This document shows, piece after piece, positions 2,136 through 63,707 of a DNA stretch of 64,000 nt. Position 1 is the stretch's first letter; each line of letters starts with the position of its first letter. The stretch is from Tribonema minus. Taxonomy: Eukaryota > Sar > Xanthophyceae > Tribonematales > Tribonemataceae. Location of the stretch: positions 186,001-250,000 of the forward strand of contig JAFCMP010000434.1 in assembly GCA_017506865.1 (NCBI GenBank), given 5' to 3'. A model generated the notes under the pieces. That model searched no databases and was not told the origin of the DNA. It was given only the letters and a program-made list of their open reading frames with translations. Both the position numbers and the translations under genes were made by a program.

Positions 2136-5100
2136 ATGGCTCTTCAAAGAGTGCTGCTGTGCCTAGTGGCAGCTGCATGCGTGTCATGTGGCAGTGCCTT
2201 CGCACCGAGGCTCGGTGCCTCCGTGAGCAGCCGGACGGCGGTGTCATCGCGGGCGATGGGGATATTGAAAATGGCGGTGGAGGGCGCGGAGCAGGAGCAG
2301 GAGAGCCCCAGTGACAAGCTTATCTATGACTCTAGGACGGGGCGCTTTTACGAAAAGAAGATCGAGGAGGTGAGCCAAAAGTACTGTCGACTCAAAATGA
2401 CTGCGTGTTCAACATGCCTTAAACACGGCCCTTGTTGAGCAATAGAATACTGCCTGCCCATCTGAAGTCAGCAGCACAAACATTGACTATTGATCACACC
2501 ACAGGCACTGCTGCTGCAGTGTGTGAGTTTGCCTCGGTCACAGCGCCTGCTGTGCTCTGTCAAGGGGTGTCAACGGGCTGTAGCGCAGCACAAGCCGCTG
2601 TGAGGGATGGCAACAGGCCCAGCGCTGACGGTTCAGTGTGTTTATCAGTCGCCGTTGCCAAACAGCTATAAAGACCGTTGTAGCGCAGCATAGGCTGCCG
2701 CCAGTAGCTGTGTTTTCTGAGCAATGCGCTGATCGTCAGCACAGTTCAGCATAGGGGCTAAGAACAGCCCCTGCATGCGCCCTAACATGGTAGCATTTAT
2801 TCCATAACATGGTTCACAACCACTCCAATATGGCATATGCAGCTGGCGCTGCCTTGGGTTCCAGGCGTGCATTCCGGCATCAGCAGCTGCCACTGTTTGT
2901 TGCCTGGTGAGGAGTTGAAGTCGCAAGCTGGCTTGAATTGCAGTAGCACCCATTCCTCTCATGGGTGCAGACCTGTGGATTGCGGCATGCCACTGTTTAC
3001 TAGGACCCCACTGTTTCAAGCATGCCCCAACCTCAACCTGCAATTGAGATGGATTGGGCCTTGCTCTCCACTCAACGGTATCTACGCGCGTGTGTGCTGG
3101 GGCCACTCTCACTGAGGTAGTACATTCACGTGCTGCTTTTCACATGGCAGTATGCATCATACGGCATGATGGGTGTTGTGCGCTGACACATCGAGGCATT
3201 TCAAGACTGCAGTGTTGGGCGCTGGTTGCGCTGAACTTCAACTGCATCCTGCCACAAACGTCACACATGGCGTGGGCATCAGAGGCTCTCTACTGCAGAT
3301 GTATGGCAGTGCTAAACCAACACAATGGTTCCTCGTACCTTCCATCATGGGCGTGAAGCAGTGCTGAAAATTTGCGTCGCACTTAGCAGTGGCCTACTAT
3401 TTGTCAGTGTCTGTGACCGCGTTGCCTGGCAGTCATCGACACAGAAACCCTCTCGCGGTCTATCATTTGTGGTTGCCAGGAGCGGCTCCTGACAGCCAAT
3501 GTTGTCGCTACAGAATCAGCATAAGGCGCTCGTGCAGCGCAGATGGTGCAACTTCAACATTCACTTCAACTGAGTCACCTTGGGTATTTGCGGACGGGCC
3601 AGCGGAGTGACCAGCTCGGCAGGCTGCATAGCGCCGGCACTGGAGGAGCGGAGTGCGCATACATAAGCTCAACTTGAAGTGATGCACTGTACAAGACCGA
3701 GGCAAATAATCGCGTCAGCTCACGATATTAAGCGTTGCAGAAGCGTGCAGGGGGTCCCTCCCCTTTCCGCTTGGCAAAATTGCTGCCCCAGCGCCGGTCG
3801 GTAGGTAGGCAAGTGTTGAACATTTTTTCGCGTAATTGCAAGACATTTTAGCGCTGCTTCTTGCTGTCGCCGCCCGCCCAACTGGCATGGCGGCAGCGGC
3901 GCTGCCGGTGACGATAGGTCGCGCTCACGCCGCGTGCGCAACTGCGTTTCACCTCTCTTTCCCGCTGCCGCCGCCGCGCGACGCGAAAGGGCACGCCCAG
4001 ACGCCGGGCTCGCTTGCAGAGCCCCCATGCGCACCCCCCTGCACTGGGTAGGTAGGGCATGTATGTATGCAGTGTATGTTGAACAATCATCAAGGTTACT
4101 AGTGCAGTGCCGCGCGCTGCACAGCCAATATACCGACATGCGCTCCACGCCTCTGGGGCATGGACACGTTTGCAGGTGCCCCCCGTCAGCGGCGGCGCTG
4201 CCCCTCGACATGGGCCACGGGGCCAGCTAGCGTGCGCCTCAGCAACGGTTGGGGCAACCACGAGCACCCTATGTCAATGATGCCATGCCATGAATGTCTA
4301 TCTTATGGACCGGTAGGCACCTCACCGTAGTGCCGAGCGCTGACTTGGTTGTTGACCCTCCCACTCTTCTCTCCCCCCGTGTCACAGATCTGCAGCGACA
4401 TTTACTGCGCAATCAACGAATACTGTGGTGATCGCTGACATTGTTGCCCCCCCCCCCCCTCCCCCCCCTGTGTCACAGATCTGCCGCGACGAGTACTGCG
4501 CGATAGACCACTACAGTGCTGAGCGCTGACATTGTTTGTGCCCGCCCCCCCCCCCCCCCCCCCCCCCCGTGACAGATCTGCCGCGACGAGTACTGCGCGA
4601 TAGACGAGTCCACGGGCGAGCAGGTGCTGCTGACGCTGGAGGAGAAGGAGCGCATCTTCCTTGACTCCATACAGTCCTTCTACTACAGCGACCGCCAGGT
4701 GCTCGCGGACGACGACTTCGAGAAGCTCAAGGAGGACCTCGTGTGGGAGGGGTCGCCGGTGGTGATGCTCAACCGGCAGGAGACGCTCTTCCTCAACGCC
4801 ATGAGCGCGTACCTGAAGGGCAGCCCGATCCTGTCCGACGAGGAGTTTGACACCCTCAAGGTGAGGGGGGGCAGTTTCAAGTTGAAGTTTTGATGTACGT
4901 GCGTGACCGGTGTCGGCTTACGGCTAGTGCACATGGCCGCTGAACTGCACAGTTCATCATGTGGAGTGCTGCAACTTCAAGTTGTTGAAGTTTTGGCGTG
5001 CGCGCTTGAGTCGTTCGCGACCGATGTCTGCCACACACAGGTGCACTGGCCGCTGTACTGCAACGTTCATCACATCAAGTGTGCAAGTGTGTATTGTATG

Positions 5101-8100
5101 TTGCCACGAAGTGCAATGCAGTGGAGCGTGACTGCTTGAATCAGCTTTAGGTTCAGCATCAAACAGCGCAAAAGCGGCTGGTGCAGCGCGTAATGTTATG
5201 GAGTTCAAGTGCTGCTACTTCGCCCTCTTCTCGTCACTACCCCAAATCCACTTTCTGTATCCCCAACTCCAATCCTAACTTGAAACTTAGGTCGGAGCTG
5301 CGCGAGGCTGGCAGCACGTTCGCCGTCTCCATGTTGCCCATGTGTGCTACATCGATCCCCTCTTATCACTACTCCAACCTGATCACCATTTCCCCAACTT
5401 CAATCAACCCAAATGCCCTACCCTCAACCCTAACCCTAAAACCGCAGTCAAAGCTGCGCGAGGCTGGCTAGCAGCAAGGTCGCCGCCGCTTCCATGGATC
5501 TCAAAAAGCACTTTTGATGCCCCTTTTTCATTACTACCCTTCAAGCAAAACCTCTGTATCCAACTTCAACCCCAACATCAAACCGCAGTTGGAGCTGCGC
5601 GAGGCCGGCAGCAAGGTGGCCGTCTCCATGGAGCCCACGTGCTACAACGACCCCCTTCTCATCACTACTCCAACTTTCTAAATCTCCAACTCCAATCAAC
5701 CCAAATCCCCTAACTTTAACCCTAACCCTAATACCGCAGTCGGAGCTGCGCGAGGCCGGCAGCAAGGTCGTCGCTGATTTTATGGAACTACTTACAAATG
5801 AAACCTGGTTTAACCCCTTTGCCATTGCTACCCTCTAAACAACCCTCTGTATCTAACTTCAACCCCAACTTCAAAACTGCAGTCGGAGCTGCGCGACGCC
5901 GGCAGCAAGGTGGCTGTCTCCACGGAGCCCAAGTGCTACATCGACACGGGCATCTGCACAGTCACATTTCAGGAAGACAAGTTCCGTGAGGCGACGCTGT
6001 ACGTACCTGTTGGCATACCTACCCTGCTCTTCAGCCTCGGCGCGCTGTACGAGGTACGTACTTCTTCTTGAAGTTCTTTACTTGAAGTATGTACTAGACT
6101 CTTCTCATAATTAGTCATAGCAATGTGGTCGGGCTGGGGCTGAGGTGGAGGATAAGTTCCGCGAGGCGACGCTATACGTGCTTTGTAGGCATACCTACCC
6201 CCTGCTCTTGAGCCTCGGCGCGCTGTACGAGGTACGCAGTTTCACTTGAGTACTTCTCTTGAAGAATTCATTGCATGGAGTATACATCAGACCACTCATT
6301 GTCACTCGCCAGCAATGTGGGTGAGTTGGGGCTCAGTTTGGCCACCAGTTGTAAGTTTTTGCACGTCATTGCTCAACGCGCCCGTTGGAGCACCTGCCCT
6401 GTGCTTCAGCCTGTTGGCACTGTACGCGGCATGCACTTCTCGTGGAATCTCGCTGAGGGCGCAGAAAAGCCCTGACGGTCGATGGCCGCGCTTGCTGCTG
6501 CTGCCGAGTCGGAGCCTGCGCACACCTCGTGACAAACTGTCGCAGTCGGCGATGACACTGAGATATGTCCTTCTTTGGAGTACTTTATTGGAGTAAGCAT
6601 TACAGTAGTAGGTTTCCACTAGGACTGAGGCGTTGGTGGGGGTTGGGGTCACGAAAGGCCCAAACACAGGTTTGCACGTCAGTGCTCGGCGCGCGCGCCG
6701 GCGCACCTCCCCTGCGCTTCAGCCTCGGCTCGTCCTGCACGAGTAGTGGAAAGCAGGAAGGCGGGCACATGTTTGCTTTCGAAGGCAGCGCTCACGGTAC
6801 CCATGAAGGCAGCGCTCCGCATGCTTGGCAAAGTCAGCGCTCCGCATGTTTGGCAAAGGCAGCGCTCACCGTGCCCATCTAGGCAGCGCTCCGCATGCCT
6901 GTTAGCAGCGCTCAGCGTGCTCATCAGCGACGCTCAACGCTACCGTGAAGGCAGCGCTCAACGTGCCCATCAACGCAGCGCTCAGCGTGCTCGTCAAGGC
7001 AGCGCTCCGCATGCCCATCACGGCATCGCTCAGCGTGTCTAGCGCCCCATGCGCACCGGCTCCTCAGCCTTAGCGCGCGATGACCGTGTCTGGAGTGTAG
7101 AGATCAAGATCTGGGTTGAGATCGGTGCCCTGCAGCAGCCCAATGCGCGGAACGTGAGGTGCGTGTCTGCTGGGGGCATCTGACGGGAGGGGGGATATCC
7201 CCTCAGACTCTGCAGAGCCAGGGGTCAAGGGTCTCTCGACTTGCAGTGTAGGTATGTTGTACCAGCGGTGACTGCCCGTGCTCGTGCTCGGCCGTAGCTC
7301 CCAATTGAGATCTGATCGGGCGCAAGCCGACTCACCCCTTTCCACCTCTTTCTGGCGCATCCCGGCAGCGCATGCGCTGGAGCGCCGCCACCGCCAGAGG
7401 TGCACACGACAGCCAAGCGACCATACAAACTCAGCTCATAGCACCGTGTTCTGCTCTACCGAAAGCTCAAGTCATGCTCAGGACTTGACTCAAGCTCAGC
7501 GACCATACAAACTCAGCTCATGGCACCGTGTTCTGCTCTACCGAAAGCTCAAGTCATGCTCAGGACTTGACTCAAGCTCAGCTCCGCTCTCTCTCCGTAC
7601 CTGGTGCCTGCCGCAGCTCTTGGAGCCTTTACGGTCTGTGAACCCGCTCGTCACGCTGGTGCTGGCGACCCTCCCCACGTACTTCTTCACCAAGTTCTTC
7701 ACCGACAACGTTTTTGCGACAAATGACCCCAAGGTGAGGGAGGCACCCGCAAGCGTTACATGCCGTGTTTGCGACGCAAGGCGTCTATGTCAGACACTTG
7801 ATGTGTTCACCAAATATGCACTCGTGACCAGCAAGTGCGTGCTGCCCCTGGCTTCCGCTGCGACCATTCCGTGCATTGGAGGGGATGTGTAGCACGCCCC
7901 TGGGCCTCCGCGCCTCTGAGCTCAGCGCATGCATGTGTGGCAAGATATTAAGTATGTCCATGTCTTCATGGAAGAAAAATTTCATGACATTGTCACTGTT
8001 CAGCGCTTAAAATGACCGCATTTGATATCTGTCGCAGATTGCGTACGGCCCGTGCCCATCGTGCGGCGCGTCCAACCATGTGTTCTTCGGGAACGTCCTC

Positions 8101-10941: not shown

Positions 10942-13293
10942 CGTTGACGAGAGTGATCACCACTCTTAATTCACAAGGTCGCCATGAGCTTGTGCGTGCG
11001 AGCTGAGCTGAACAAGTTTTGCAAAATACACAAAAAGGGTACGTTCATGTTTTTTTCATGTCTCTGTTGATGTTTGCTGCCTTGTCTGCATGGTCTCGAA
11101 GGCACGCAGCAGGGGTGCACCTCGCATTCAACAGCATGATCTGCTTTTGCATGGTCAGGCATCGCGCGCGTGCCACCGATGAGACTGATTTGTTTTGTTG
11201 CATCTTGCTAGCATCTCTTTTTAAAAGAAAGCGTAAGACTGCCAGCCATGCTTGCATGCATGCATGCTTTACGCTACCTGCTCAAACATGTCGGTTTTGT
11301 TTGGCGGGGATTTCTGCAGTAGTCAAGCATCCACACAGCTCAGGTTGCAACTTTGTACGTTCTGGCACGCACAAGTGATGACTAGAGGTCTACAGTAGGT
11401 GGTCTGTGCAACATGTGTATGCGTTGGATACAAGCACTGCGCCTGAAGCGGCTGTCACTGCATGCGGGCACACGCTCAGAGTACACATGATGGTGGTATA
11501 CCAAGGTGTCAAACCGAGCCGGCATGTCCTTGGCTGATACAAACCAATACTGAATTTTCACAACAACAAAGCAATACAGCAAATTTTGGGATCTGATGCT
11601 TGTGACGGGAGCGCTACATGGAGGGTAGGCCAGCTCATGCCTGAGCAGCACCATGGCACCGGGGCGTCCAGTACTGGCTGGTACGTGCTGCTTGATCCAA
11701 GTCTGCAACTGTGAGAGCACTGTGCCATACGCCCATGCAATGTCCAGTGCCAGCCTTCTACGACGTGGCAGCCACCTGTCACTACTAAGTCTTATTGGGT
11801 ACCCAAAGCAGTCCGCAATGCTTCAAAGGCAATTGTCAGCTGGCTCCTGTACGCATGTGCACCCACGATGACTTCAGATGCCGGCGCAGGCATCATTGCT
11901 TGAGATCAACAGCCCGTGGTAGTCAAACATACTGTAAGTTTCATCATTTACATTATGTAGTGCCAATGTTAAAGCGCACTGCACGTCATCACTGGCCTAG
12001 TTGGTGCGCACTTTGACCTCTGCACATTGACGCTGCAATTGCAAAGGACAAGAGTCGAAATGCACATGCTGCTGACCTCGGAGTCCTTCCTACATGATCA
12101 ACACACACATGCTGAAGGCGCAGTGCTATTTAATGCACAGTACGCCAGCCAGCGTTGGAAAACAATCCAGCGCCCACTGACACTCGACAACTCCATGCGC
12201 TTTCACCGCTGCGCCGACAGCACAATTCACATTATGTACACCATGTGCACTCGACATGTTCATATACGGCACTGTTCGACTCGTAGCCAACGACTGCAGC
12301 AGCGGCGACCGCGGTTATGGTGGAAGGCACTTGCGGCTAACCACACTTAGTCAACTAGAGCTCTACGATTCGTTGATTCGTTTGCATAAAGAGGTGCGCA
12401 CAGGCCTGCGCTTTGCCCTGGCAGTCACCATCAATGCCCTGGCAGTCACCAATCAGCAGCACTGTGCTCAAAACGCAGATTCAAGCCCTGGCGGGTCCAC
12501 CCAGCCGTGCGCCACCCTTGCAGTCGCCGAATCAAGCAGCAGCTCTGATCGAAACCTCCGGAGGTTTGACTGGTCTCCTAACCATCCCTGGCGCTGCAGA
12601 AACGTCCGAGCACATACAGCATGATGCGGAAATCAAGGGCCTGGCGCACAACGCGCGCCATGCAGTATGTATGTATATTGACCTCAGTCATTCTTCCTGC
12701 GCTGTTGGCGCGCCGTGTGACAACGCTCGCGCAGACAGTGTCCGCCGTGCACAGTGCATACACATGCATTTACACAGCCGCCGCCCAGCCCTCCCGCATC
12801 ACCAAACACGCGAGTGAGGGCGCCCCCTCCCCCCCCCCCACACACACACCCTCTCATGTGAAGCGACCGGAGCGGCAGTGTCACACAGGTGTAACAGCCA
12901 TAGGTGTGTCACGTGTAGTCGACCGACCGACCGAACGCGTGCGAAGCACGGGCAGGGGGGGGCTGCAAGATGCCCGTCGCAGGCGATGGCAGCGCTCAGT
13001 CAACGCGGCAGCCGCCGCAGGTGACAGCCTCAAGCGGCCATGCACGCACACGCGCCACAGCCATCTCCGCTGCAGAGACGGCAACTGCTAGACGTGCGGT
13101 GCCAAGCGTATATGATGCTTGTGCGCGCTGAGCACAGCCGCCGGTGGCGCGATGCCCCCTGTGCCTACTGTGTGTAGCACCGAGCGGGGGTGATGTGTGG
13201 GGGGTGGGATGCATGTATATGGGCGGGGGGGGGTTCACCAGCAGGGCGGGAGGGGGGGGGGCGCGGGCAAGCGGGGGGGGGGAAGGGGCGTAG
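10942..13293. other. Intergenic region between convergent genes
   Basis: This 2.35-kb region between the ankyrin-type gene and the end of the UBE2 gene has no supported exon. It holds one copy of a dispersed repeat (12268-12385), a short duplicated CCCTGGCAGTCACCA near 12416-12446, and G-rich tracts near 13195-13285 just beyond the UBE2 stop. Confidence 0.45.
12268..12385 (+). repeat. Dispersed repeat, copy 1
   Basis: About 115 bases match 36908-37025 in the same orientation at roughly 80-85% identity by eye. Shared blocks include GACTGCAGCAGCGGCGAC, GGTGGAAGGCAC and CTAGAGCTCTAC, then TTGATTCGTTT. One copy is intergenic, the other intronic. It could be a small non-autonomous element; I see no clear terminal inverted repeats or target duplications. 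Confidence 0.75.
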
Positions 13294-16200
13294 CTATGAT
13301 GCGAACTCCGCGGTGCACTTGGCAGCGTTCTTGATGAAGGCTTGCTTGTCTTCAATGAGCAGCCGGCCGATCTCGGGCTCAAGCGGTGACTCTGTGGAGG
13401 GCTCGATGAGCATCTGCACAGGTCAATGATGGAGAGCAGCGCTGTTATGAGTGCATACACGAGTGATGATGTACGGAACGTACTCCATGAAGAGTGAGAG
13501 GTGGGGTAAGTGTACGAAAGCATCCGTGCACTGAAGAGGTAGAGCGGCCTTTTTGTGAGCAAAGCGCTGCGCACGTGACGCAGACATGCGCACGGCACGA
13601 GCCCCTCCTTAGAGCCTCCTGATAAGAAGCGCACGTGACAGCGACGGCCAGCACGAGTAAAAGTTGCTGGTGAGAGTTGCTTGCATGCAACTTGAGCATT
13701 TGAGCAAACTGAATGCAATCCTAAGAACGGGCGTTGCCATTGCTACCACCTCCTTGGTGATGTGTAAGCTGTGTTTCAACAACCGCGCAGCGCTGCATGA
13801 CTTGCGATTGACGGCGTTTTCGCACGCGACGCAGCCGACACGATCATGTTAGTCTCCAGACTAAGATCATAGAAGCCTCCAGACTTGTGATCAGGTGCAT
13901 TAAAAAAAAAAAAATGGGTCACTCAACCGACAACTTCGACCCTTTTGAGGGACGTCGCCCAACCGCCAAACATACCATGTACACCGTTGAACATACGCAC
14001 ATGAGGGCTCTGACGATTGAGCAGCGGGCGCGCTGCCCGCGCCAGCATTGTTCAACGCTCCTGGGCCACGCAGTCAGCACGACCATAGAAGCCTGCAGTC
14101 CCCCCCCCCCTACCCCCTGCCACGAACTCTACGTAGCACGCACTGTGTGCTGAGGGGCAAGGGAAAGCGGCTGCGGCGCGGCGCTGCGTATCAGAATAGT
14201 GGAGGATGTCGCAGTGCCCAGCGGCACGCCCCCGCGCCTGGCGTCTCATGATAAGCACAAAGGCGACGTCAGCCACGATCGTGTAGGCCTCCAGACCGCT
14301 CATCGGCGGCGAGAGAGGAACGTGCATCTGCATTTTTTAGTTCGCCGCTGCTGCCCGAGTGCATGTTGCGGTGCGCGGCGGCATTGGCGCGCACCTGGCG
14401 TATCGTGTTGAGGACAAAGGTGACGTTGAGCGTGGGGCCCCAGTTGTTGAGAAGGACGTCCGCGCAGATCTCGCCCGTCGCCGTGCGCACGTGCGGGTGG
14501 TAGATGCGCGTCTGGAACTTCACCTGCGCGTGATGGGGTGAGAATTGAAGTTGAGATGAGAGGTCAGTTCAAGCAAACAACGGCACGTGGTGGATGCACG
14601 TCAGCAACTTCACCTGCGCGCGTGGGGGGGGAGAGGGGGGATAGTTGCAGTTGGAGTGAGAGGCATCAGCTCAGCAAGTCAGCACCTGCATGTGTGGCAG
14701 ATGGCTAAGGACTTCACCTGCGCATGCCGCGCCATCGGGTCATCCCTACTGTACAGCAAGCGCAGTATTCCGCGGCAACAAGCTGAAAGCATCATGGAAG
14801 ACAAGGAACATCTCACCGCCCCCCCAACCCACCGGTCCCCCCCCCCCCCCCCCCCCCCCGCCGGCGCACAACTTAATTAAATCCATGGTGGGAAGACCGG
14901 GGAGGGGGTATGTGAGAGAACTCACACAAGAAAGCGCACCTCACACCAATACGATGGCATCAACATTTTGACTGCGACCAAAACATCGCTGGCATCAGCG
15001 GTAGGGTTAGGGTTAGGGTTAGGGTTAGGTAGCGCAGGAACATGATGCGGTCACTGCAACGCCGCAAGTCGTGACCATAGCAGCCCTTCATGCACCCGCA
15101 GGCATAACCGCGCTACATGGCTGCGCATGCATCCGTGACACCGCAGATCAAGGGAGGAAAGCGGCGCGCACTAACATACGAACACGTCGAGGGCTGACAG
15201 TGCACCAAGTGTGGAGCGCCCTGTCAGCGCTGATGAGCACTGATGATGGGCCAATCAAGTGCTGAGCGCAGTGGCGGACTAAACAGATCGCAAAATGCCA
15301 ACGAGCACACTGACCTTGGGTGCCTTGAAGGGGTACTCTGCCGGAAACTCAAGCGAGATGTTGAAGATCCCTCCCTCGTAGGGGGTGCCGTCCTGTTGAA
15401 GTTAGGAAAGAGTGGGGGGTGCACAAAGCAGGCATGCTCACGATATGTTCCGCTGCCGTCTTCACACACCATGTATGCAAAAGGTCGTCGCAGGACCAGA
15501 TACTAGACAGGGAGTTGAAGTTGCACTCATCCCTACTCGTCTCTGTGAAGCTGCTGTCCTTGTGAACTGCACCATCAGTTAATTGCGTAGGAGAGCCTCT
15601 CAGCTGCAAAAGCCCACTCTACCATTGCGAATCATAGAGCTCACAATGGCACACTGAAGGGGAGAAAGGTGATTGCTATCCTGAAAATCATCTGATCCTC
15701 GAGCTATCCTGAAAATTATCTGATCCTCGAGGGGCACTCAAAGCTGTCAATGTGACGCTTGATGTGCTGAACACCAGCAATGTGCCGTGAAGTTGTGGTT
15801 GAAGTCTTAAGTGGCAAGCCTGGCACGACAATCTGTTCTATGCGTCAATAACCATCGCAACATATAACGTCGGACACGAAAGTCCAAAACTCACGGCCAC
15901 CTCAAGCGCACATGCCTACAGAACATCTGACAAGGCAACATGCCCAGAATCAGTTGCCTATCTGATATTGATGGATATTAACATACTGATCACACTCCTC
16001 CACCAGACCTGCTCATTTGTAGCATGAGGACTGAGCTGCGGACAAATAATTGAACTTCGCGCTGAACAATTTTTTTTCTGCACTCTTGCACGCACCGGTC
16101 CCACGATGGTGGCTGTCCATTGCAAAATATCGTCCTCTTGCGGCTCGCAAGTGCACCAATCCAGAGGCGACCGCTTCAGCTCCGCGAGCTCCTGACCTCA

Positions 16201-22025: not shown

Positions 22026-22652
22026 TTGGCCAGCCATCGCCGCTGTTTGACCAATCGCCTCGCAGCAGCAGCGTCTAGGGGGATTTTAGGGGGGTCTTGT
22101 CTGCCGCACAAGCGCCCCATCAACATTGTGCACTTGGGCACGTGTAGGGGCCGGCCCCTTGCAAATAGTGCTGAGCACATGATGCAAGCAGGTGGGGGGC
22201 AGGGGTGGGCTGTGGGGGAAGGTGGTGAGGGGGAGGGGGGGGGGGGGGGGCAAGTTGAGCGGCTTGGCTTTCCTCCATGTTCTTTTTGACCGAAACAAAG
22301 CAATCACTGGCTATGCACGCCAAAACTCAGCCTCCTCAACGCCTCTTGTTGCAGCCGCTGCAATGCATGTTGTGGTCTGCTTGCATTTGCCACATTGCAC
22401 ACCAGCATTGTCAGCTGTCCCGTAGGCCCACATTTGTTGTGAGTCGCAGGCTGTCAGCCATTGTACTGAGCGGATGCGTAGTATGCCATACGTCGTTGTC
22501 ATGGCTTAATCGCTCAGAACATCAAAGGTTCATTGCTTCAGTGTGCACGGGTCCACCAGTGCGCGTAGACTCCGCTGCATGAGGCTCGCACGGAGGGCAC
22601 AAGGTCTCCTGTGCATATGCCTGTTCCGATTGTACCAGTTCTTGAGTTGGAG
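22026..22652. other. Ran 3' flank and LINE insertion flank
   Basis: No gene is seen. The interval holds the Ran 3' region and a G-rich tract near 22225-22250. It ends at the LINE's possible target duplication. Confidence 0.45.
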
Positions 22653-22660
22653 CTGGTACT

Positions 22661-29337: not shown

Positions 29338-29537
29338 CTGTGAACCAGAAACAATTATCCTTGCATGTATGGATACTCGGAGTACGCTGGAGTGTGATAC
29401 GCACACAACGTCGAATTACTTCGATATGACGATGATGCAGCGATGCGAGACGATGGGTTTTTGGGCCTGCGGCGCCACGGGATGGCGGGTTTGCGATGAA
29501 GCCCGTGTGCCATGATCGTGCACGTGTGGAGCATGAA

Positions 29538-29651
29538 TTTTTTATTGGTTCCCGCTCAGTGCGCGACAAAGCCCAGATGAGTGGTATCTAAGCTTGCTGT
29601 ACGAACATCTACATATCGTGTGACAGTCTGAACGTTTCTCAACAACAACCA
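29538..29651 (-). mobile_element. 5'-truncated copy of the LINE (3' tail only)
   Basis: About 114 bases match 22661-22771 in the same orientation: TTTTTATTGGTTCCCGCTCA, GCCCAGATGA, CGTGTGACAGTCTGAACG and CAACAACCACTCAA. The match begins at the LINE stop codon (TGAGTGGTTG in element orientation) and ends at its A-rich tail. Identity by eye is roughly 80-85%, so it is older than the full-length copy. Confidence 0.83.
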
Positions 29652-30367
29652 CTCAAGCATTTACTTCTACAGTATATACGTACTTCTACATGGTCTGCAT
29701 ACTTCAGTACACGCTTCCTTCTTCTGAGGTTTATACCTTTGCAGCGCCATCGTTACACATAGAGTGTACAGTACTTTTATTATATACTGCTCGTTAGCAC
29801 CGAGAGGTGCGGCAGCACTCGCGGTGGCGCTGATGGTGGCGAGGGTGCATCAGGCAGCAAGGGGATGGGAGATGCTGGCTGTGAGCAGGAGCTGCGGAGT
29901 CGCGTGTGGTGAGGATACGGCTTTGGGCAGCAGCAGGGGATATTGGAACATGGGGATACGGATAGCATCAGGGCACACTGTAGATCGTTTGCTTGAACAC
30001 GCAAGAAAGAGAACCTCGGCCAGGCACGTCAGCGGCGTGCTTAGGCAAGGAATCGAGGACCGGGCGCCTCTGGCCCAAATGTATACTAGAGGCATAACCG
30101 CGGTCCTCCGGCGTTTTCGCTCAAGAGATGGAGACATCGGCTACGATAGGTGTGGCTCAGACTGGGTGCCGCTGTGTCTGCCCCCCATGAGTCTAGTACA
30201 AGCCTGCAACGCAGGGCTCTAAGGGCCCGTCCGATTTTAGTTTTTTGCATTCTTATCCAACGCATCAAGCCCACCTTGGGGCTGCTATAAATACAAGATC
30301 ATAAGTACACGCATGGATCTAAAACTTCGAAGTTCATGCTTCAGAGTTCAAGTACTTGAAGTATCAC

Positions 30368-46300: not shown

Positions 46301-48323
46301 GCGGTTTGCATTGGCAGTGGGCAGCGCGGGAGGAAGCGAGGGGGTGAGGGGGGGGATGAGAGGGGGATACCGTGTCGATGAAGGGCATCTATCTGGATGT
46401 GCAGCGGCTTCAAGCCGGCTTTGTGTGTCACAAAGTAGTCACCTGCTGAGCATTGATGTGTTGATGTCTCACTTGACAAGCCCCTGACGCTCGTTCGTGC
46501 GTGGATGTTAATGTGCGCACCACGCCGCCGCCGCCAGCAGCATTCAACTGTGGCGCAGCGCTCGACAGCTACAGCGGCACTGCTCGGCAGCAGCAGCAGT
46601 GCATGCCGACGCTTGTACAGTTAGCAGCATCAATCGGGCAGCTACAGCAGCGCTCAGCTGCACCGCGGCAGCGCTCGACGGCAGCAGTGCTCAGCAGCAG
46701 CAGCAGCAGAGCATGCCGACGCTTCTACGTTCAGCAGCACATGAATGCGCTGCCCGCTGCCGTGTCGATGTGAAGTCGTGGCGCATGCGCTGCCGCTACC
46801 CGCATTGCGGCGACGTCGCGCTCGGCGGCGGCAGCAGCGGCGCGGCAGCGCTCCACAGCAGCAGATGCGCACGCTGACGCAGCTGTTACCAGCGCCAACT
46901 CTTAACGCATGCCCACGCACTGCGACGCTGCAGGGAGGCGAGGCCGGCCTCGGCGGCGATGCGGCAGCGCTCCTCGGCAGCAGCAGCGGCAGCGGCGGCG
47001 GCGCGCTGACGCGCACCATGTCGGTGGAGGGCGCGCAGATTGCGGACGCGCTGGGCGCGCTGGAGAGTGACGAGGCGAACACGCTGACCAAGATCGACAG
47101 CCTGGGGTATCAGCTGCTCAGCGAGATGATCGAGGTGAGCGCTGGGATCAGGGTATGTATGAGCGGATCACGGTGTGCGTAGTCTTATTAAGCTCAGGGG
47201 TATACACTGTGCTATTTGGAGTTAGTGCTCAAACAAACACGCTGATCGACGGTCTGGGGTATCAGCTGCTCAGCGAGATGATAGAGGTGAGCGCTGACAC
47301 AAAGTTATTCTGAATGGCGAGATGCGCTAGGACCATAGTGTATATGAGCGGATCAAGGTATGCGTAGTCTTATTTAGCTCAGAGGTGTACAGTGTGCTTT
47401 TTTGGAGGTGGTGGTCAAACAAGCACGCTGAATCGACGAGATGCACGAGCGGAGCAAGGCGCGCGTGGCGAGCGTGCAGATGTACAGCGTGGGTTCGTGG
47501 GGCCCAGCGTTGACAGCACAGACTGTGAGGCGAGCGTTGACACAAGCTGCCGCTGCGAGCGAAGAGCTGCACAATCAGACCAAGCGTGCGCGTCCATATG
47601 GCTCACAGTTGTGCAGTGTGGGTTTATGGGTGCCTAGTGATCATAGCAGAGAAGCACGTCGCCAAGAGCGACAGACTGGGTATCGGCGGCCGCTCAGCAA
47701 AATGATTGCGGTGAGCAAGGGTTCCAGGCTTCATGCTGCACTTGAATGCCAAGTGGGTACTGCTGTCATGGTGCATTGAATGAGTTTTTGTCCGCAACCA
47801 TGGGCAGGCACACTTTGATTGCGCTGTTTTCCATCTCCATCATATGCTGTGCGTGAACCGAAGCGGCCCTTACCCTTTCTGCAAGCGCTTCCTAGGGCCT
47901 GCCGTGCAATCACACCGCAGCCACACCCCCTTCCCTTCCCCCCTGTTACAGATGGCCCCTGGCGGTGAGCTCCTGACGCACCTGGACTCGACCCCCTTCT
48001 CCCTCACCTCGCCGTACGGCAGCGGCGGCGATCAGTCCCCCGCCTTTGGGTCCGCAGCGCCGCCGCCGCACACGCCGCTGCCGCACGCGCCGCTAGGCGC
48101 CGCCGCCGCTGCTGCTGCGGGCTATTTTGAAGCCGCCGATGCGGGCGGCGCCGCCGGTGTGGCAGCAGCGCTCGCCACAGCTGGTGACGCGGCGCTGAGT
48201 GCAGCCGATGACGCGGCTGCAGGCGGCGCGGCTGCTGAGGTGGACGGTGGCGCTGCTGCTGCGGCGGCGGCGCCTGCGCCGGACGCTGCTGCCGCGGCGG
48301 CGGCGGTGCCGGCGGCGGAATGA
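40342..48323 (+). CDS. HSF: Heat shock transcription factor, about ten exons
   Basis: Exons: 40342-40601, 40925-40963, 41527-41779, 42320-42610, 43196-43276, 43671-43802, 44851-45228, 45843-46172, 46934-47134 and 47952-48323. The phases agree (two phase-2 junctions at the start, then phase 0) and give 778 residues. The DNA-binding domain is split over three exons: VSAFLSKTFDIF, then NPQFQAEGICGWSAKGDAVI, VLPQYFKHGNFQSFVRQLNM and YNFKK, ending LIKRK. The oligomerisation coiled coil is ELVRLQERQKATEDKLKELD plus LVKQENALLWTRMRTHSADQ. The rest is Gly/Ala/Ser-rich and acidic, as in activation regions. Known role: trimeric activator binding nGAAn heat shock elements. The first exon (MPPRRSTSSSSIASS ... 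GKGAKKQ) is inferred from position and phase. A possible 9-11 base microexon near 41946 and a small exon near 47440 could add residues. Many exon-edge copies lie in its introns. Confidence 0.88.
43309..43350 (+). mobile_element. Short LINE 3'-end fragment in an HSF intron
   Basis: CCACCATCTGGGCTTTTTCG followed by CGCCCTGAGCGAGAAATAATAA is the LINE tail in plus orientation, nearly identical over about 42 bases to the reverse complement of 22664-22705. It starts 33 bases after the donor of HSF exon 5. Confidence 0.82.
43420..43600 (+). repeat. Two upstream copies of HSF exon 6 start with acceptors
   Basis: The exon 6 opening CTGGTGAAGCAGGAGAACGC also appears at 43521 (through CTGTGGACGCGCATGCGCAC with only late divergence) and in short form near 43427 (CTAGTGAAGCAGGAG). 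Each copy has its own C-rich tract; the 43521 copy has a TAG acceptor. The genuine exon starts at 43671. Confidence 0.92.
43870..44060 (+). repeat. Two downstream copies of HSF exon 6 end with donors
   Basis: GTGGCGGCAGGCGGCAACGT followed by GAGTG at the genuine junction (43785-43808) is echoed by GTTGCGGCTGGCAGCAACGT followed by GAGTG near 43896 and GTGGCAGCCGGCGACAAAGT followed by GAGTG near 43986. All three are followed by TACCTACCTACCTTGG and CAGTGC[C/T]CA. Confidence 0.9.
44255..44295 (+). repeat. Degenerate TTAGGG tract in HSF intron 6
   Basis: The stretch ATTAGGGTACAGTAGGGTTA, then GGGGTAGGGTTAGGGCT, is an imperfect telomere-type run. Confidence 0.75.
45270..45320 (+). repeat. Downstream copy of HSF exon 7 end
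   Basis: CTGGGCATGGACATGGCGCC, then GCAGCTCGCGCGGCAGGTAT, repeats the genuine exon end at 45193-45232 with one change, GGG to CGC. The downstream intron stretch (TTGAAT[T]AAATAGTGAAACTGTCG) is duplicated as well. Confidence 0.93.
45477..45500 (+). repeat. TTAGGG tract in HSF intron 7
   Basis: Three to four TTAGGG units in succession, sense to the gene. Confidence 0.88.
47225..47720 (+). repeat. Downstream copies of HSF exon 9 end with donors
   Basis: The exon end (AACACGCTGACCAAGATCGA, then CAGCCTGGGGTATCAGCTGC, then AGCGAGATGATCGAGGTGAG) is repeated near 47237-47300 with few changes. It recurs near 47645-47712 in decayed form (GTCGCCAAGAGCGACAGACT, then CTCAGCAAAATGATTGCGGTGAG). The pair 47430-47510 and 47560-47635 also resemble each other (GAGATGCACGAGCGGAGCAA against GAGCTGCACAATCAGACCAA) and may derive from another small exon. 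Confidence 0.85.
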
Positions 48324-50013: not shown

Positions 50014-50056
<43 letters not shown>

Positions 50057-57882: not shown

Positions 57883-60800
57883 TCACGGCGCGGCTGCTGC
57901 GGGCACGCGGCACGCCTCCTTGACGCTCGCGAACGGCGCGATGAGGCCGCGGATGGCCGCCGCAACAGTGCTCAGTGGACAGAACTCGGCGCCGTGCGCG
58001 TGCGCGCCGTGCGCTGCAGCGCAGCCGGTGACGCGGCTCGTGACCGCCGCGCCGTTGTACACCACCTGTGGCGATGCAGGGGGGTGGAGGGGGGGGGGGG
58101 AGATCTGGTTGATGGGGTGCATTCATCACATCGAGAGGTGATGATTGAGGCGTGAGGTTGTGGTGTGCAACGGCAGGCGCCGCGGCGCAGCCAGCGCGAT
58201 GCCGCCGACGACGCGGCTTGTCGTCGCCCGAGGTGCGTGGGGGGGGCTCGGCCAGCGCTGCTCGTCTTACAGACCATGCTCTCTGTCTGAACGAGATCGC
58301 AGCTGTGGGACATGACGCTGCGCGCTCACAATCACAAGTACGCGCACACACACTCTCGCCGCCAGCGGTGTCTCTGCTGAACAGTGTGGTCTTGCACTCA
58401 GTGACACTGCATGAAGCCGCGCCTGTTGGCTCAAGGCAGGCCGTCCACAGAAACCTCAACTTGAAGTATCATCGAGCCATCTGCGAGGTCTCATGACAAG
58501 CGCCAACTTACAGCAGATTGGCAGGGTCTAAATTGCCCCCCCCCCCCCCCCCCCACACACACAAACCCACTCAGCACGCATCAAGAGCCCACACACTTGG
58601 ACAAGGTACGCACACTTGCGCCTCAAGACTCGGGCTCACCCGCACGAACGCGTCTGCGCACGGCCCCTTCGGCTCCGGCAGCGGCAGCGGCGGTGGCGGC
58701 GGTGGCGTGTGCGGCGTGTGCGCGCGTGTGACATTCGCAACCGTCACACCCGGGGGGGCCGGCCCCCCCGCCACCCCCGCTCCTGAGGTGGCGCCCCCCG
58801 CGCCCACCTCCGCCGCCTCCGTCCCCCCTGGCTCCACTACCCCCTTGTCTCCCTCCTCGGAGGCAGCGCCATCGCTGTGCTCAGCGGCGACCTCCTGCAG
58901 AGCGCGCGCGCCGGCGCCGTTCCTGGAATTTTCCCCGGAACACGCAGGACCGGTCCAGAGCTCGATGCGCACGTGCGACGCGTAGGGCGGCCAGCGGCAG
59001 TCGTACGCGCCGAGCGCCGCGAGCACGGGCGCTATTACGGTGTCGTGGCCTGAATAGAGGGCCAGCTTCGGCGCCTGCGCGTGGTTGACCACAAGTGCAC
59101 GAAGGTTAGGGTTAAGGCTGGATTAGGGCTAGGGCAAAGGCGCCAGTGCAGGGGCGGGGCCCGATATTGTTTGTGCGTGTGACATTCTTTGAAGCTTGAA
59201 GTATGTTTTGAACTTGAAGTATGAGTTAGCGTTGTTGGTGTCTGACAGCGGTGCACATGAGCTGCCAGCATGTGTGAGATGACGGCATCGTGGCCTGAAT
59301 AGACGGCCAGCTTCGACGCCTGCAAACAGGCCGGCAGCATGATCGTACATTGAGGTCAGCGTGGAGAGTGGGGAGAATGCGCCTGCACAGGGGCGGCGGC
59401 CTGACCGGTGACGAAATCTACGAAACGCGCTTTTGAGCTTGAAGTATGCATTCAAACTTATGCATGAGCAGCATAAAGTAGCCAGTGAATGAACAGCAGC
59501 GGTGCACATGCGTTGCCAGCACAGGTAATATTAGAGTGTCAGGACCTGAGTAGAGGGCCAGCATCGGCGCCTGCACTTGAACAGACGCGATCGTCCACGA
59601 ACTTAGGGGTAATGTTTTGCTTACGATCCAGTTAGCGCCAGACAGGAGCATCACCGCTCTCGTGCCACAGAATCACAAGCGCAAACACATGCGTACATAC
59701 CCGTGTGCTCAGGGCTCACATACTGTCCGCGCCGCATGGCGTGCAGTGCGACCAAGCACACAGCAGCAGCTGCACCGCGCATAAACGCAAGAGACGCGGA
59801 ACGACGAGTGCGCCTCACGGCATCTCTCGCGGACACGCGCTTCGTCATTTTCAAGCGTGGCAGAAGACGTGAAGCAGGCACGTCACCTGTGCAGATGGTT
59901 ACGCCATTGCTGCCCTCACCCTTACTCGAATTCACTTCAGCATGCTACTAATTCACAAACTGCAAGTATCAAATAACCTCCTTCACGGGCCGTCACCTGT
60001 GCTGGCGGTTCCGCTGCTGTCGCCGCCGCCTCCATGTTGCCCAGCAGCTCCATCATGAACGGGTAGATGGACAGCCGTGAGGCGGAGAACCCTCCCTGTG
60101 CAGCAGCGCTCAGGATCAGAGGCAACATCGCTCAGCTAGGTGGTGCGGTCCACATACATTTCAAGTGCGTGCGTGACTTCATTATTTACTTCAAGTATGC
60201 ATACTTCAAGTATGTACACTTCAGGTATGTGAAAGGCAGAGGCAACATTTGTCAGCTGGGTGCTGCTGTCATTGTACTTGACGACGTTGTACACTTCAAG
60301 TATGTGAACTGTGAACGTCGAGGTGTACAATTGGAATAATGTGATGCGATTACCAGACAACAAATTGCGTCATCGCTCAGCTTGCACACTAAGAGTCTAC
60401 ATCTGGACAAACATGATGGAAGTTGGGAGGCCAAAACGACCGCGTCTGTCGGCTGCATGGATGTGCAGCCTTACAATGGCATGCCATCTCTACACTATGC
60501 GTGGGTTCTTCAAGGGTTGTAGTCAACTGCCTCGCAGTAGTCTAGTCGAACTTCATCTTCAACTTCATCCTAGACCATCTACATACATACATGCCCTACC
60601 TGCACCCCCAGGTACTCCATGCACAGCCGCCGGTCCGACTCTGCCATGAGCGCGCGTGCCAACTGCTCCCCCATGCACCGCGCGCCGCCGCCACCGCCGC
60701 CGCCGCTGCCGCCGCCGCCGCTGCCGACGCCGCCACCGCATGGTTGAGCCATGCCATGGCACGCGCGTGCGTACACATGGTCTGTGAGCCGCGTCACCTG

Positions 60801-63707
60801 TAGCAGCACGCATACAACGGACGACATACAAGTACAGGTATGTACTCGTGGACTTGTATACTTCACGAATGAAGGCTCCAAGGGAGGCTGCATGTCCCGT
60901 GTGTTCCTAGGGTTTGAATTACGTGCAGGAACAATAGTCTAGTCAAAAGCCCTGTGGTATGCACAACCAGATCACGCCAATCGCGTCATTCGCAACGCAC
61001 GTCACGCGCGTACACTTATGCGCTTCGCAAGCATGAGCGTTGTGAGCAACGCCTGCTTCAATGCTCAATTCATCTGCATGAATGAATTCATGCTCATCAT
61101 GTGGGGGGGCGCATCACCTTCATCTCCGCGGCGGGCGCCCCGAAGCCGTCCGCCATGCGCTGCACGACGTCGTCGCGAACGCGGAGCGCTGACGCGCCCG
61201 CCTGCTGCTGGGCCTGCACAAGTTCAAGGTCAAGTTGAAGTGGTGGTGCATGGGCTTCATGAGTGAAAGCTAGGTACAGCAGGATGAACAAAATCACTTG
61301 CAATGCTCTCAGGCCATCAGCGAGTCAGGGCAAGGTTCAGAGTGGGAGTCAGAGTCGAATGGCCTTTGCACTGGCCATCCGGGCAGCCTCCCTCCCGCGC
61401 CCTCATGGCGTCGCGACCACTTAGGGTTAGGGTTAGGGTTAGCTAACCCTGAAAATACCATTTCATAGGGTGGTGCAGGCGCACTGAGTTCGTGCGGCAC
61501 CGCAGTAAAGTACTAGACAGACGAGCGCCATTGAGTCAGAGCCACAGTCAGAGTCAAAGTCAGGGTGAGAGTCATTTCCGCCATGGCCCTCGGGCAGTCC
61601 CTCCTCCAGCGAGTCAGAGCAAGATTCAGAGTCAGAGTCAGAGTAAGAGTCACCTCTGCGATGGCAAGATTCAAAGTCAAAGTCAGAGTGAGAGTGAGAG
61701 TAACATCCGCGATGGGCGTCGGGCAGTCCCCCTTCAGCAGGCGCTCGCCGCCGCCGCCTACGTTGCGAGTCAGAGCAAGAGTCATAGCGAGAGTCAGAGT
61801 GAGACTCACCTCCGTGATGGCCCTCGGGCAGTCCCCCTCCAGCAGCCGCTCGCCGCCACCGCCTACGTTGGTGCTGCTCTTGAGGCCAATGCCCTGCATG
61901 ACCTGCCATTGAGGCGCGCACCAACGGCATGCAGTGGCGGCGAGGGGGTGGGGGGTGGGGTGTGTGTGTGAGGGGGAGGCTGACGATAGCCGCATGAGGG
62001 AGGGGGGGCAGTGTTGAGGGGGAAGGGGTGCTGACAACGGCCACACGGGGGGGGGGGGGGGGGGGGGAGGGGGAGGGGGGATGATGGCAGCAAGGGGGAG
62101 AGGGGTGGTTGGTCCTGATGACAGCCGCATTCTTTGCGCTGAGTGAGGGATTCGTTGGGGCAGCACACAGCAGCGCTTGACATGTGCACAAATTGGCGGG
62201 GCCTCAGTGAGATGAATTGCAGATGAGCCGCAGATGTACTGCGCTGTAGTACACTGCTGGTGTGGACGACGAAGACAAACTGAGATTTGAGCCTTTTTGT
62301 TTGAAAAAAGACAAACTTCAACTGCTGGTTGAGCAGTGCGCCGCACCTCAAATTCTTGTCCGGGTTGAACCGCTGATGCACTGCACTGTACATGCTGTTG
62401 TGGACGACAAAGGCAAGACTGAGGACGACCTTCTACAAGTAGATGAACTTCAACTGCGCCGTACCTCAGCGTTCTCGTCCGGGTTGGTGATGATGGTCAC
62501 GCGCCCGTGACCCGCCCCCAGCAGACCGCGCAGCAGCGCCGCCGCCGACGCCAGCGTCCGCGTGTAGTCAGTGCTCCGCACATAGAGCCCCCCCCCGTGC
62601 CCCCCCGTCACCTGGCTCAGCAGGTGACCGTATGCCGTCCGCAGCGCGTCGCCCAGGCGGAAGTGCTGCCTGCAAGGAGGCGGCGGGGCGCGAGTGAACG
62701 AGTCGAGTGAATGAGTCAAAGCTGTGCGGTTCAACAAGTAGCACTGGGTTCCACGTGCAGAGCCTTCCCCCACTTGCCATCATCCCCTCCACCCCCCGGA
62801 GGCCACCAACTCCTCCCGCCCCCCCAACAATGACCGCAGGCTGCTGCCGCCTTCAGAGCCTCCCCCACATGAAAGCGCACTTTTGGGTGTTGTTGTGTGC
62901 ATTGGCTCTGTCCCCACACATGCACACCTGACCTGAAGCGGCTCTGCAAGTTCAGCAGACTGCCGCGGAAGTTCAGTGAACACATTCGCGGCAGCCCTTC
63001 TCTGTGAGCGGCTTCGAGTGCACGTTCCTCACGGCGGCGTCCTCTCCTGCAGCGCCGCAGACACTTCACCATGCCCCATACCCGCACGCCCGACTAGAAT
63101 TGGCTCTTCCCCTGTGCGAGGTCTGCTGTATGCATGTGACTCTCCATAGCCCCTTTCTCCATGACCTGCCCCCGCGTGCACAACCATCCCCGGCGCGCCC
63201 CCCCCCCCCCCCGCCCTCCCCTCCCCCTCCCCCCCTTCAGCAGCGCCGCACCCGTGACCATACACGCACGCATGCCTGGATCTACGCTTCTGCTCTCGAG
63301 CAGTTGGCTCTGGCAGAGTCACCCCCCAAAAACAAAGAGTCCAGCCACTCACCGTAGCCCCTTCTCCGTGAGCTGCCCGGGGGCGCATGCCCCCCGCGGC
63401 GGCGCGCGCTCCCGCTCCCCCCCCCCCCTTCCCCTCCAGCAGCACAGCAGACAATAATCTACTTTACACGCATGCCTGGATTGGTGCTGCTGCTTTGGCA
63501 GATTCCCCCCCAAAAAAAACACAGAGCCCCCACTCACCGTAGCCCCTTCTCCGTCAGCTGCCCGGGGGCGCACGCCCCCCTTGGCGGCGCGCTTTCCCCC
63601 TGCCTCCCCCCCATCCCCTCCAGCAGCGCGGGCCGCAGCGAGCGCTCCAGCGGCTGGCCGTCCACCCCCACTACGCCAATGTTGCGCTCCACCTCTGACC
63701 AGACGCT
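57883..63707 (-). CDS. Histidine acid phosphatase family protein, 5' end outside window
   Basis: Exons on the minus strand: 63538-63707, 62465-62669, 61810-61902, 61118-61213, 60600-60797, 59997-60095, 58640-59074 and 57883-58065. Phases agree and give 492 residues, but the start and the catalytic RHGxRxP motif must lie upstream, beyond the window. Visible family motifs: GQLTEKGLRQHFRLGDALR, then GLYVRSTDYTRTLASAAALL, later KLALYSGHDTVIAPVLAALG (the catalytic His-Asp pair), then YDCRWPPYASHVRIELWTG, and at the end VVYNGAAV and EFCPLSTV. Known chemistry: phosphomonoester hydrolysis through a phosphohistidine intermediate, usually in secretory or lysosomal compartments. The WPPYASH motif points to the 2-phosphoxylose-phosphatase/ACP2-like branch rather than phytases, as inference. 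A Gly/Pro/Glu-rich insert of about 90 residues follows GENSRNGAGA, and a Gly-rich loop lies in exon 60600-60797. Its introns hold copies of nearly every exon edge. Confidence 0.87.
59100..59140 (+). repeat. Degenerate TTAGGG tract in acid phosphatase intron
   Basis: AAGGTTAGGGTTAAGGCTGG, then ATTAGGGCTAGGGC, 29 bases from the acceptor of the exon at 58640-59074, antisense to the gene. Confidence 0.75.
59275..59585 (-). repeat. Two upstream copies of the SGHD exon start
   Basis: The genuine exon edge (plus strand ACGGTGTCGTGGCCTGAATA, then GAGGGCCAGCTTCGGCGCCT) is echoed near 59280 (ACGGCATCGTGGCCTGAATA, then GACGGCCAGCTTCGACGCCT) and near 59535 (AGTGTCAGGACCTGAGTAGA, then GGGCCAGCATCGGCGCCT). 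Both keep the CAG acceptor in gene orientation and are followed by GAAGTATG-rich intron. Confidence 0.9.
59875..59925 (-). repeat. Downstream partial copy of exon 59997-60095 end
   Basis: CACGTCACCTGTGCAGATGG, then TTACGCCATTGCTGCC resembles the genuine edge CCGTCACCTGTGCTGGCGGT, then TCCGCTGCTGTCGCC. The donor is retained. Confidence 0.65.
60117..60306. repeat. Tandem 120-base duplication in acid phosphatase intron
   Basis: CAGAGGCAACATCGCTCAGC and CAGAGGCAACATTTGTCAGC start two copies 120 bases apart. Each ends in repeated ACTTCAAGTATG blocks (five in all, one variant), the densest cluster of that motif in the window. Confidence 0.85.
61345..61780 (-). repeat. Three downstream copies of exon 61810-61902 end
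   Basis: The genuine edge (plus strand CTCCGTGATGGCCCTCGGGC, then AGTCCCCCTCCAGCAGCCGC) is echoed near 61690 (ATCCGCGATGGGCGTCGGGC, then AGTCCCCCTTCAGCAGGCGC), near 61575 (TTCCGCCATGGCCCTCGGGC, then AGTCCCTCCTCCAGC) and weakly near 61362 (GCACTGGCCATCCGGGCAGC). Between copies lie GAGTCAGAGTCA-type microsatellites that are part of the unit. Confidence 0.9.
61421..61446 (+). repeat. TTAGGG tract in acid phosphatase intron
   Basis: Three to four TTAGGG units are followed directly by CTAACCCT, an inverted unit, forming a short fold-back. Confidence 0.85.
62325..62425 (-). repeat. Downstream partial copy of exon 62465-62669 end
   Basis: CAGTGCGCCGCACCTCAAAT, then TCTTGTCCGGGTTG resembles the genuine edge CTGCGCCGTACCTCAGCGTT, then CTCGTCCGGGTTGG. 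A second duplicated intron block (GTGGACGACGAAGACAAACT against GTGGACGACAAAGGCAAGACT) flanks it. Confidence 0.8.
63022..63445 (-). repeat. Downstream copies of exon 63538-63707 end with donors
   Basis: The genuine edge (CACTCACCGTAGCCCCTTCT, then CCGTCAGCTGCCCGGGGGCG, then CCCCTCCAGCAGCG) is repeated near 63346 almost unchanged. It recurs near 63151 in decayed form (CTCCATAGCCCCTTTCTCCA, then TGACCTGCCCCCGCGTGC, then CCCTTCAGCAGCGCCGC), and a last trace lies near 63032-63060. Confidence 0.9.

Follow-up and report, generated by a model that had tools for sequence, protein, structure and literature searches.

The introns of Tribonema minus contain partial copies of the edges of their neighboring exons, each holding the end of an exon, the adjoining splice site and some intron, arranged head to tail beside the exon. 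The window analyzed here is the whole stretch of 64,000 base pairs (bp), bases 186001–250000 of contig C434 (911,828 bases) in a genome assembly of 158 Mb and 554 contigs. Exon-edge copying is real and general in this species and affects about one exon edge in six. With a probability of about 0.55, in our view, it goes back to small tandem duplications of an ordinary kind, which splicing filters and exchange or conversion amplifies anew. In the window, such copies had been claimed in seven genes on both strands (PGRL1, UBE2, Ran, CSN7, HIG1, HSF and acid phosphatase), and they were seen in all seven, UBE2 being the weakest case. Compared with itself, the window yields 51 direct and 6 inverted repeat pairs (57 in all); in 45 of the direct pairs, the starts of the two members are within 600 bp.

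Frequency and arrangement of exon-edge copies

Exon-edge copies are commoner than exon-centre copies, a comparison that had been set as the test beforehand. In a sample of 244 kb, 60-bp probes found a same-strand copy within 1.5 kb at 46 of 295 exon edges and a copy at none of 73 exon centres, which were probed only where the exon measures 180 bp or more; in exons of that size, 25 of 161 edges are copied. No opposite-strand copy was found within the same distance at any of the 295 edges. At least one edge is copied in 44 of the 169 kept exons, and both edges are copied in 6. The one to four copies per edge seen by the sequence-only reading recur as the range over 50 copied edges (out of 303), where 26, 11, 11 and 2 edges have one, two, three and four copies, respectively. 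Copied donor edges (31/148) are more frequent than copied acceptor edges (17/156; p = 0.018).

Copies of 5' edges had been said to lie upstream and copies of 3' edges downstream, and 77 of 79 copies lie on the expected side. Any head-to-tail duplication that crosses a junction produces this one-sided, gene-oriented layout automatically, and the layout is thus not independent evidence. Divergence does grow with distance from the exon, as proposed earlier; of 56 within-edge pairs, 40 have the higher similarity in the copy closer to the exon, 11 show the opposite and 5 are ties (p = 6 × 10−5, although the pairs are not independent). The mean identity of the exon part is 0.917 over 64 copies, and 37 of 89 copies are less than 90% identical. 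This divergence indicates that the copies are not assembly duplicates; near-identical ones, such as Ran 20302–20560, could be.

The sample consists of the window and 180 kb of 10-kb stretches of the same genome (L004–L013 and L015–L022), of which L007 was picked for its Ran paralog and is therefore not a random stretch. L014, a small contig (5.4 kb) with many inverted repeats (61 local inverted pairs), was dropped from the sample counts. Exons were taken from a gene model self-trained on the window and the other stretches. Predicted exons shorter than 45 bp or with a coding score of 8 or less were removed, 14 predicted exons flagged as copies were excluded, low-complexity probes were excluded from the probe-based counts, and the doubtful predicted exon 6909–7034 was retained. 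Stretches L021–L022, whose exons were kept without the copy filter, are included in the probe, copy-side, stop and gap, exon-masked and donor/acceptor counts, and are absent from the relocation test of 87 arrays, the 86 edge-spanning pairs and the unit-length lists.

The gene model finds exons in all seven named genes, with some exons missed in places. Pfam supports five of the seven, namely Ran, UBE2 (UQ_con), CSN7 (PCI), HSF and histidine acid phosphatase; in the Pfam search, the PGRL1 and HIG1 models gave no match above the cut-off. Annotated T. minus proteins match PGRL1, both Ran paralogs and HIG1. The protein built from the PGRL1 exons is 100% identical to the annotated protein over 88% of its length, and the annotated HIG1 protein, P0241, carries PF04588.

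Structure of the copies

The copies hold contiguous exon and adjoining intron, and the splice dinucleotide is retained in 55 of 64. Local pairs in 18 stretches comprise 295 direct and 74 inverted ones, 61 of the latter coming from L014 alone, and in 40 of 86 edge-spanning pairs the match covers at least 0.75 of the spacing. The intron content and the head-to-tail order indicate local tandem duplications of DNA, not copies of spliced RNA; joined exons with missing introns, the signature of a retrocopy, were not seen in the copies, which include the adjoining intron and splice site. The unit spacing is 80–208 bp in 33 exon-touching arrays. Three young two-copy arrays overhang the spacing by 1–3 bp, which chance would give as well, and most breakpoints are too diverged to reveal microhomology or another trace of repair. 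Whole-exon arrays number 0 of 87 versus 2.5 expected (P = 0.07), and the gene models of the window show no additional intron. When a single Ran unit was searched for in the genome, the 3 matches among the best-scoring candidates were all Ran loci, comprising the unit itself, its neighbors and the paralog.

The exon part of the copies is confined to a narrow range. It measures 29–92 bp in 72 junction-reaching copies, at 44 of 44 edges, whereas units of the observed sizes placed at random have an exon part of more than 100 bp in 29–41% of cases (Kolmogorov–Smirnov p = 4 × 10−4 to 3 × 10−6, depending on the exon set and the unit distribution). Measured on the alignments of 40 pairs, the exon part is 12–104 bp with a median of 52.5 bp, and the only value above 100 bp belongs to the doubtful exon 6909–7034. 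The upper bound is not a detection effect, because longer exon parts are easier to find; the lower bound reflects the detection limit. Among arrays free of predicted exons, 6 of 24 exceed 208 bp, three of them in the satellite-rich L015. A 219-bp satellite-like array lies at positions 254–4142 of that stretch.

Coding state and fate of the copies

Judged from their sequence, the copies appear to be mostly non-functional. In their exon parts, 28 of 33 gaps break the reading frame, and 62 of 77 copies have neither gaps nor stops. The peptides encoded by the copies are absent from all four annotated proteins compared, namely Ran P0123 (212 residues), the Ran paralog P0124 on contig C68, PGRL1 P0001 and HIG1 P0241. 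A minority of copies may be used as exons.

It is very improbable that the copies in general are functional, serving as alternative cassette exons or as splice-site decoys under selection. Such a role would fit the absence of in-frame stops from 1233 aligned codons under the stricter threshold, versus about 6–7 simulated, the concentration of mismatches at the third codon position (66, 78 and 193 at positions 1, 2 and 3), the retained splice dinucleotides, and two copies of Ran on C68 that, read by eye, form in-frame units of 60 bp preceded by AG and followed by GT. The frame-breaking gaps and the missing peptides speak against it, the retention of splice sites is probably about what a copy-branch divergence of 6% would leave, and conversion from the true exon would likewise remove stops. 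Such conversion is the simplest reason for both the few stops and the third-position bias. Coding constraint on the copies, suggested by the codon-position counts, is weakened as an explanation by the frame-breaking gaps and the possible conversion.

History of the Ran array in a paralogous block

Paralogs of PGRL1 (79%) and of Ran lie on contig C68, as do the best matches outside C434 for the HSF and HIG1 exons. The relatives of PGRL1, Ran, HSF and HIG1 on C434 and C68:31000–188200 point to a duplicated block, which suggests a large block duplication or an ancient genome duplication. The PGRL1 exon 4576–4860, single in the window, matches two separated stretches of C68 (31272–31385 and 31531–31707), possibly a gain or loss of an intron between the paralogs that may have come about via duplication.

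Between the two Ran genes, a collinear match of 765 bp at 77.6% extends over copies and exon. In its intron part, the copy at 19819 of the window has an identity of 0.77 to the corresponding C68 copy, 0.69 to the other window copy and 0.51 to the flank of its own exon. Since this copy is closer to its C68 counterpart, some copies seem older than the split of the paralogs. Where the true Ran exons differ, 50 cells of the copies agree with their own locus, 18 with the other locus and 11 with neither; either the Ran copies would have been remade after the split, or their exon parts would have been refreshed by conversion. The 98% copy of the window stands in the same register as the array, though the array is partly common with C68.

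Proposed explanation

In the explanation that we prefer, small head-to-tail duplications of DNA, with units mostly of 80–210 bp, would arise locally, as in break repair or slippage. If the unit straddles a junction, one copy would keep to the exon while the other would land on the intron side and be spliced out; such duplications would be nearly neutral and hence persist. Whole-exon units or long exon parts would disturb the mRNA or its splicing and would be purged by selection. The conserved true exon would keep the exon part of the array alike and thereby anchor unequal exchange and gene conversion, with fresh copies arising next to the exon as the earlier ones degenerate. The lengthening of introns would be a by-product.

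The splicing filter is supported by the difference between edges and centres (25/161 versus 0/73), the exon part of at most 92 bp, the lack of whole-exon arrays (0/87) and the absence of the peptides. Under this filter, donor copies are expected to be commoner, since transcription reaches a true donor ahead of its copy, but an acceptor copy ahead of the true acceptor. The frame-breaking gaps support the decay of the copies. Re-amplification is supported by the Ran array, which is partly common with C68 and yet includes the 98% copy in the window and the own-locus matches.

Several results weigh against this explanation. With exons masked, the arrays that touch an edge number 30 of 72 versus 19.7 ± 3.5 expected (P = 0.002), and 30 of 58 versus 21.2 ± 3.4 when the null is limited to gene surroundings (P = 0.008), an excess of which a pure filter predicts none. 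Arrays lying wholly inside exons number 11 versus 11.3 ± 2.9 expected, where a strict filter predicts depletion, and coding sequence as such is thus not spared; the spacing is divisible by 3 in 12 of 17 within-exon pairs, but 10 of these 12 come from one exon. Splicing selection gives no obvious reason for the limit of about 92 bp or for the missing edge units of more than 208 bp. Under the looser threshold, the copies have 3 in-frame stops versus 10–11 in a neutral simulation, for which simple decay is insufficient. The regularity of the exon part and the 1.4–1.5-fold exon-masked excess are without a proven cause.

Excess at splice junctions

Edge-spanning arrays number 41 of 87 versus 18.5 ± 3.6 expected under random relocation, and outside the window 25 of 63 versus 13.0 ± 3.1. 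Detection bias makes up part of this excess, since old edge copies remain visible through their conserved exon part; the identity of 0.917 in the exon part compares with 0.637 in the 40-bp intron flank under a permissive alignment. We regard it as unlikely that junctions have no effect at all, that is, that uniform duplications seem junction-centred only since the conserved exon part keeps old copies recognizable. A simulation in which exon constraint lifts the detection of edge units to 0.62 versus 0.43, about 1.4-fold, agrees with such a bias, and so do the recent pairs, 1 of 14 best pairs of at least 90% identity spanning an edge versus 1.9 expected. Noncoding 60-bp windows show no peak at junctions, copies occurring in 17 of 293 beside junctions versus 93 of 1551 at 60–760 bp (six distances) and in 55 of 463 at 800 bp or more from a strong exon, satellites included; these windows overlap the same arrays. 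In the exon-masked flank tests, only 47 of 291 or 50 of 292 edges have copies versus 12.1 ± 1.6% (range 8.6–17.2%), and another edge test (52/317 versus 11.9 ± 1.6%) also points to detection bias.

The simulated gain of about 1.4-fold, or nil when the match is required to span the edge itself (0.44 versus 0.43), nevertheless falls short of the 41 edge arrays versus 18.5. The decay model is imperfect, its simulated exon:intron ratio of 1771:1372 lying below the observed 46:17. Moreover, the excess survives the masking of exons, and detection bias would favor long exon parts, none of which are observed. As the whole explanation, detection bias is therefore opposed by the relocation of arrays, the exon-part length and the exon-masked excess. 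The true junction excess is perhaps 1.4–2-fold, and its mutational origin is unproven. A pseudo-edge control (32/320 versus 3.9 ± 0.9%, 2.6-fold) overstates the excess, as edge arrays are excluded by construction; the coverage profile around exons mixes true exons with copies, and the verdict was made without it.

Duplication in units of about 130 bp might instead be directed to junctions by transcription or splicing, through an R-loop, spliceosome-bound pre-mRNA or a nucleosome-sized exon patch, which appears quite unlikely. The ranges of the exon part (29–92 bp) and of the units (80–208 bp), narrower than in random placement or noncoding arrays, would accord with it. The exon-masked excess would as well, and it is found also in arrays of at least 85% identity (17 of 32 touch an edge versus 9.4 ± 2.3, P = 0.003); below 85%, 13 of 40 do so versus 10.2 expected (P = 0.18), and in the window alone the excess is not significant (7/17 versus 5.1 ± 1.8). 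In addition, exon-touching arrays hold 4929 of the 5411 noncoding local-repeat bases of the window, and the undepleted arrays within exons suggest that selection may be weaker than assumed. The recent pairs and the noncoding windows given above argue against direction to junctions, the asymmetry between donors and acceptors is not predicted by it, and we know of no mechanism for junction-directed duplication. It is likewise quite doubtful that a junction-directed process in this alga keeps copying a unit of about 130 bp (30–90 bp of exon edge together with the splice site and roughly 50–120 bp of intron) alongside itself, at both sides of exons but not from their centres, and that it is a main source of intron growth. 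Of the earlier proposal, the junction duplication itself stands as real, widespread, more regular than random and adding to intron length, whereas copying guided by the spliceosome or by RNA is not demonstrated by these results.

Copies in individual genes and other features

The true exons and their copies in the window are listed in Table 1. In PGRL1, the array at 4335–4575 has a period of 91 and 2.9 copies, 4335–4508 matching 4430–4605 at 80%, with one copy at 4479–4508. The copies of the 5' edge of exon 5883–6053 at 5292–5355, 5591–5651 and 5740–5768 have identities of 0.84, 0.92 and 0.97, the closest copy being the most similar, and past its 3' edge 5972–6090 matches 6147–6267 at 83%. The match in UBE2, 14497–14538 versus 14587–14627, extends over 42 bp at 86%, below the thresholds of the stricter copy listings. 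The donor copies of Ran exon 3 have spacings of 183, 180 and 201 bp and identities of 0.99, 0.96 and 0.96, the first being the recent 98% copy.

Table 1. True exons and exon-edge copies in the window.
Feature	Position	Strand	Details
PGRL1: two tandem copies, acceptor and 5' edge of exon 4576–4860	4335–4575	+	unit ~91–95 bp
PGRL1 exon, true copy	4576–4860	+	gene model; residues present in annotated protein P0001
PGRL1: copies of 5' edge of exon 5883–6053	5254–5882	+	self-comparison
PGRL1 exon, true copy, duplicated at both edges	5883–6053	+	gene model, annotated protein
PGRL1: copy of 3' edge and donor of exon 5883–6053	6147–6267	+	exon part 82 bp, 0.90
UBE2 exon (UQ_con), true copy	14395–14523	−	gene model, Pfam
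UBE2: partial copy of 5' edge of exon 14395–14523	14587–14627	−	weakest of the seven genes
Ran: two copies, acceptor and 5' edge of exon 19950–20197	19572–19905	+	19654–19719, 19819–19864; unit ~157 bp
Ran exon 3, true copy	19950–20197	+	gene model, annotated protein
Ran: three copies, 3' edge and donor of exon 3	20302–20767	+	self-comparison
Ran exon 4, true copy	21146–21361	+	gene model, annotated protein
Ran: two copies, 3' edge of exon 4	21462–21682	+	0.91, 0.78; spacing 165, 122 bp
CSN7: copy of 5' edge of exon 30379–30522	30628–30709	−	self-comparison
CSN7: copy of 3' edge of exon 32333–32434	32118–32180	−	1.00 over 40 bp; second copy 30918–30957
HIG1: copy of 3' edge and donor of exon 36017–36178	36266–36429	+	exon part 92 bp; not in P0241
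HSF: copies, acceptor and 5' edge of exon 43671–43802	43398–43569	+	43521–43569, 0.98; 43398–43440, 86%
HSF: copies, 3' edge of exon 43671–43802	43883–44073	+	chiefly intron part, 73%
HSF gene: copy, 3' edge of exon 44851–45228	45273–45351	+	0.97
HSF gene region: copy, 3' edge of exon 46934–47134	47244–47438	+	0.93
Acid phosphatase: two copies, 5' edge of exon 58640–59074	59261–59575	−	0.80, 0.79
Acid phosphatase: copies, 3' edge of exon 61810–61902	61533–61765	−	61706–61765, 61577–61610
Acid phosphatase: copy, 3' edge of exon 63538–63707	63353–63443	−	exon part 90 bp, 0.89

A short motif recurs near junctions. In the window and the other stretches, AACTTCAAC occurs 23 times versus 0.19 expected and CTTGAAGT 24 times versus 1.35, with sites in the window at, for example, 4881, 5562, 5855, 6067, 19791, 19928, 45888 and 59195. 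In the sense orientation, TTGAAGT is enriched within 50 bp downstream of donors, with 24 hits at 147 donors of the sample, and ACTTCAA within 25 bp upstream of acceptors, with 11 hits at 155 acceptors; no matching rise was found in the other orientation at these donors and acceptors. Related hexamers within 70 bp mark both ends in 2 of 127 introns. Copies accompany 10 of 26 donor edges that have the motif versus 21 of 123 without it (p = 0.03), and acceptor edges show no clear difference (3/18 versus 14/140, p = 0.42). The motif is a possible intronic splicing signal.

Between Ran and CSN7, positions 23170–25820 of the minus strand hold a reverse transcriptase coding sequence, with RVT_1 on 25107–25820, which by its sequence represents a putative remnant of a retroelement resembling a long interspersed nuclear element. 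An imperfect palindrome of about 850 bp (31071–31919) in a CSN7 intron has nested arms that are 76–97% complementary and is questionably a fold-back element. Unlike the local copies, two repeat pairs are dispersed, 12268–12383 with 36906–37024 (85%) and 22648–22771 with 29527–29656 (81%). Telomere-like AACCCT/TTAGGG repeats lie inside contigs, in the window at 15002–15029; in the noncoding DNA of the sample, TAACCCTA occurs 33 times versus 0.5 expected.

Significance and comparison with known systems

The copies bear on the questions of how introns grow longer and of whether the junctions are in themselves prone to mutation. About one-sixth of exon edges carry datable, oriented by-products, which paralogous gene pairs allow to be timed. 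The growth of introns via junction-spanning duplication thus becomes countable, and young events could separate mutation from selection. For annotation, copies with intact splice sites resemble exons, as the 14 predicted as exons by the self-trained model illustrate.

Introner elements, a single sequence family inserted at many loci, also alter intron content, whereas in T. minus each copy comes from its own neighboring exon. Introns formed by AGGT duplication, the Rogers model as described in PMC4974935, are another way in which the intron content of genes is altered. Break repair by CST/Pol alpha-primase likewise yields head-to-tail duplications of short DNA segments at breaks, which in the available part of that paper are not tied to splice junctions (PMC8355091). 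The leucine-rich repeat exons of brown algal ROCO genes, according to PMC11378527, resemble the T. minus copies as a local amplification of exon and intron in a stramenopile lineage; there, whole exons of 72 bp are amplified and used in the protein, whereas T. minus has partial copies that are missing from the annotated proteins examined and whose gaps mostly break the frame.

The sequence-only reading did not recognize junction-centred partial duplication on this scale from earlier work. No earlier report of exon-edge duplication at genome scale was found in the open-licence literature, and to that extent the statement stands; a junction-spanning case is, however, published for a potato gene. 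In the potato RdRp gene (Ma et al. 2016, PMC4974935), an intron was gained via tandem duplication across an intron-exon boundary, and a figure legend gives an 83-bp tandem duplication within an intron. Common to both systems are the boundary-crossing tandem duplication, the inheritance of parental splice signals and the turning of exonic into intronic sequence. The potato case, as described there, concerns one gene, with an extra intron and inserted exon sequence, whereas in T. minus the copy is absorbed by an existing intron, and this has happened at about one-sixth of exon edges, repeatedly and on both the donor and the acceptor sides.

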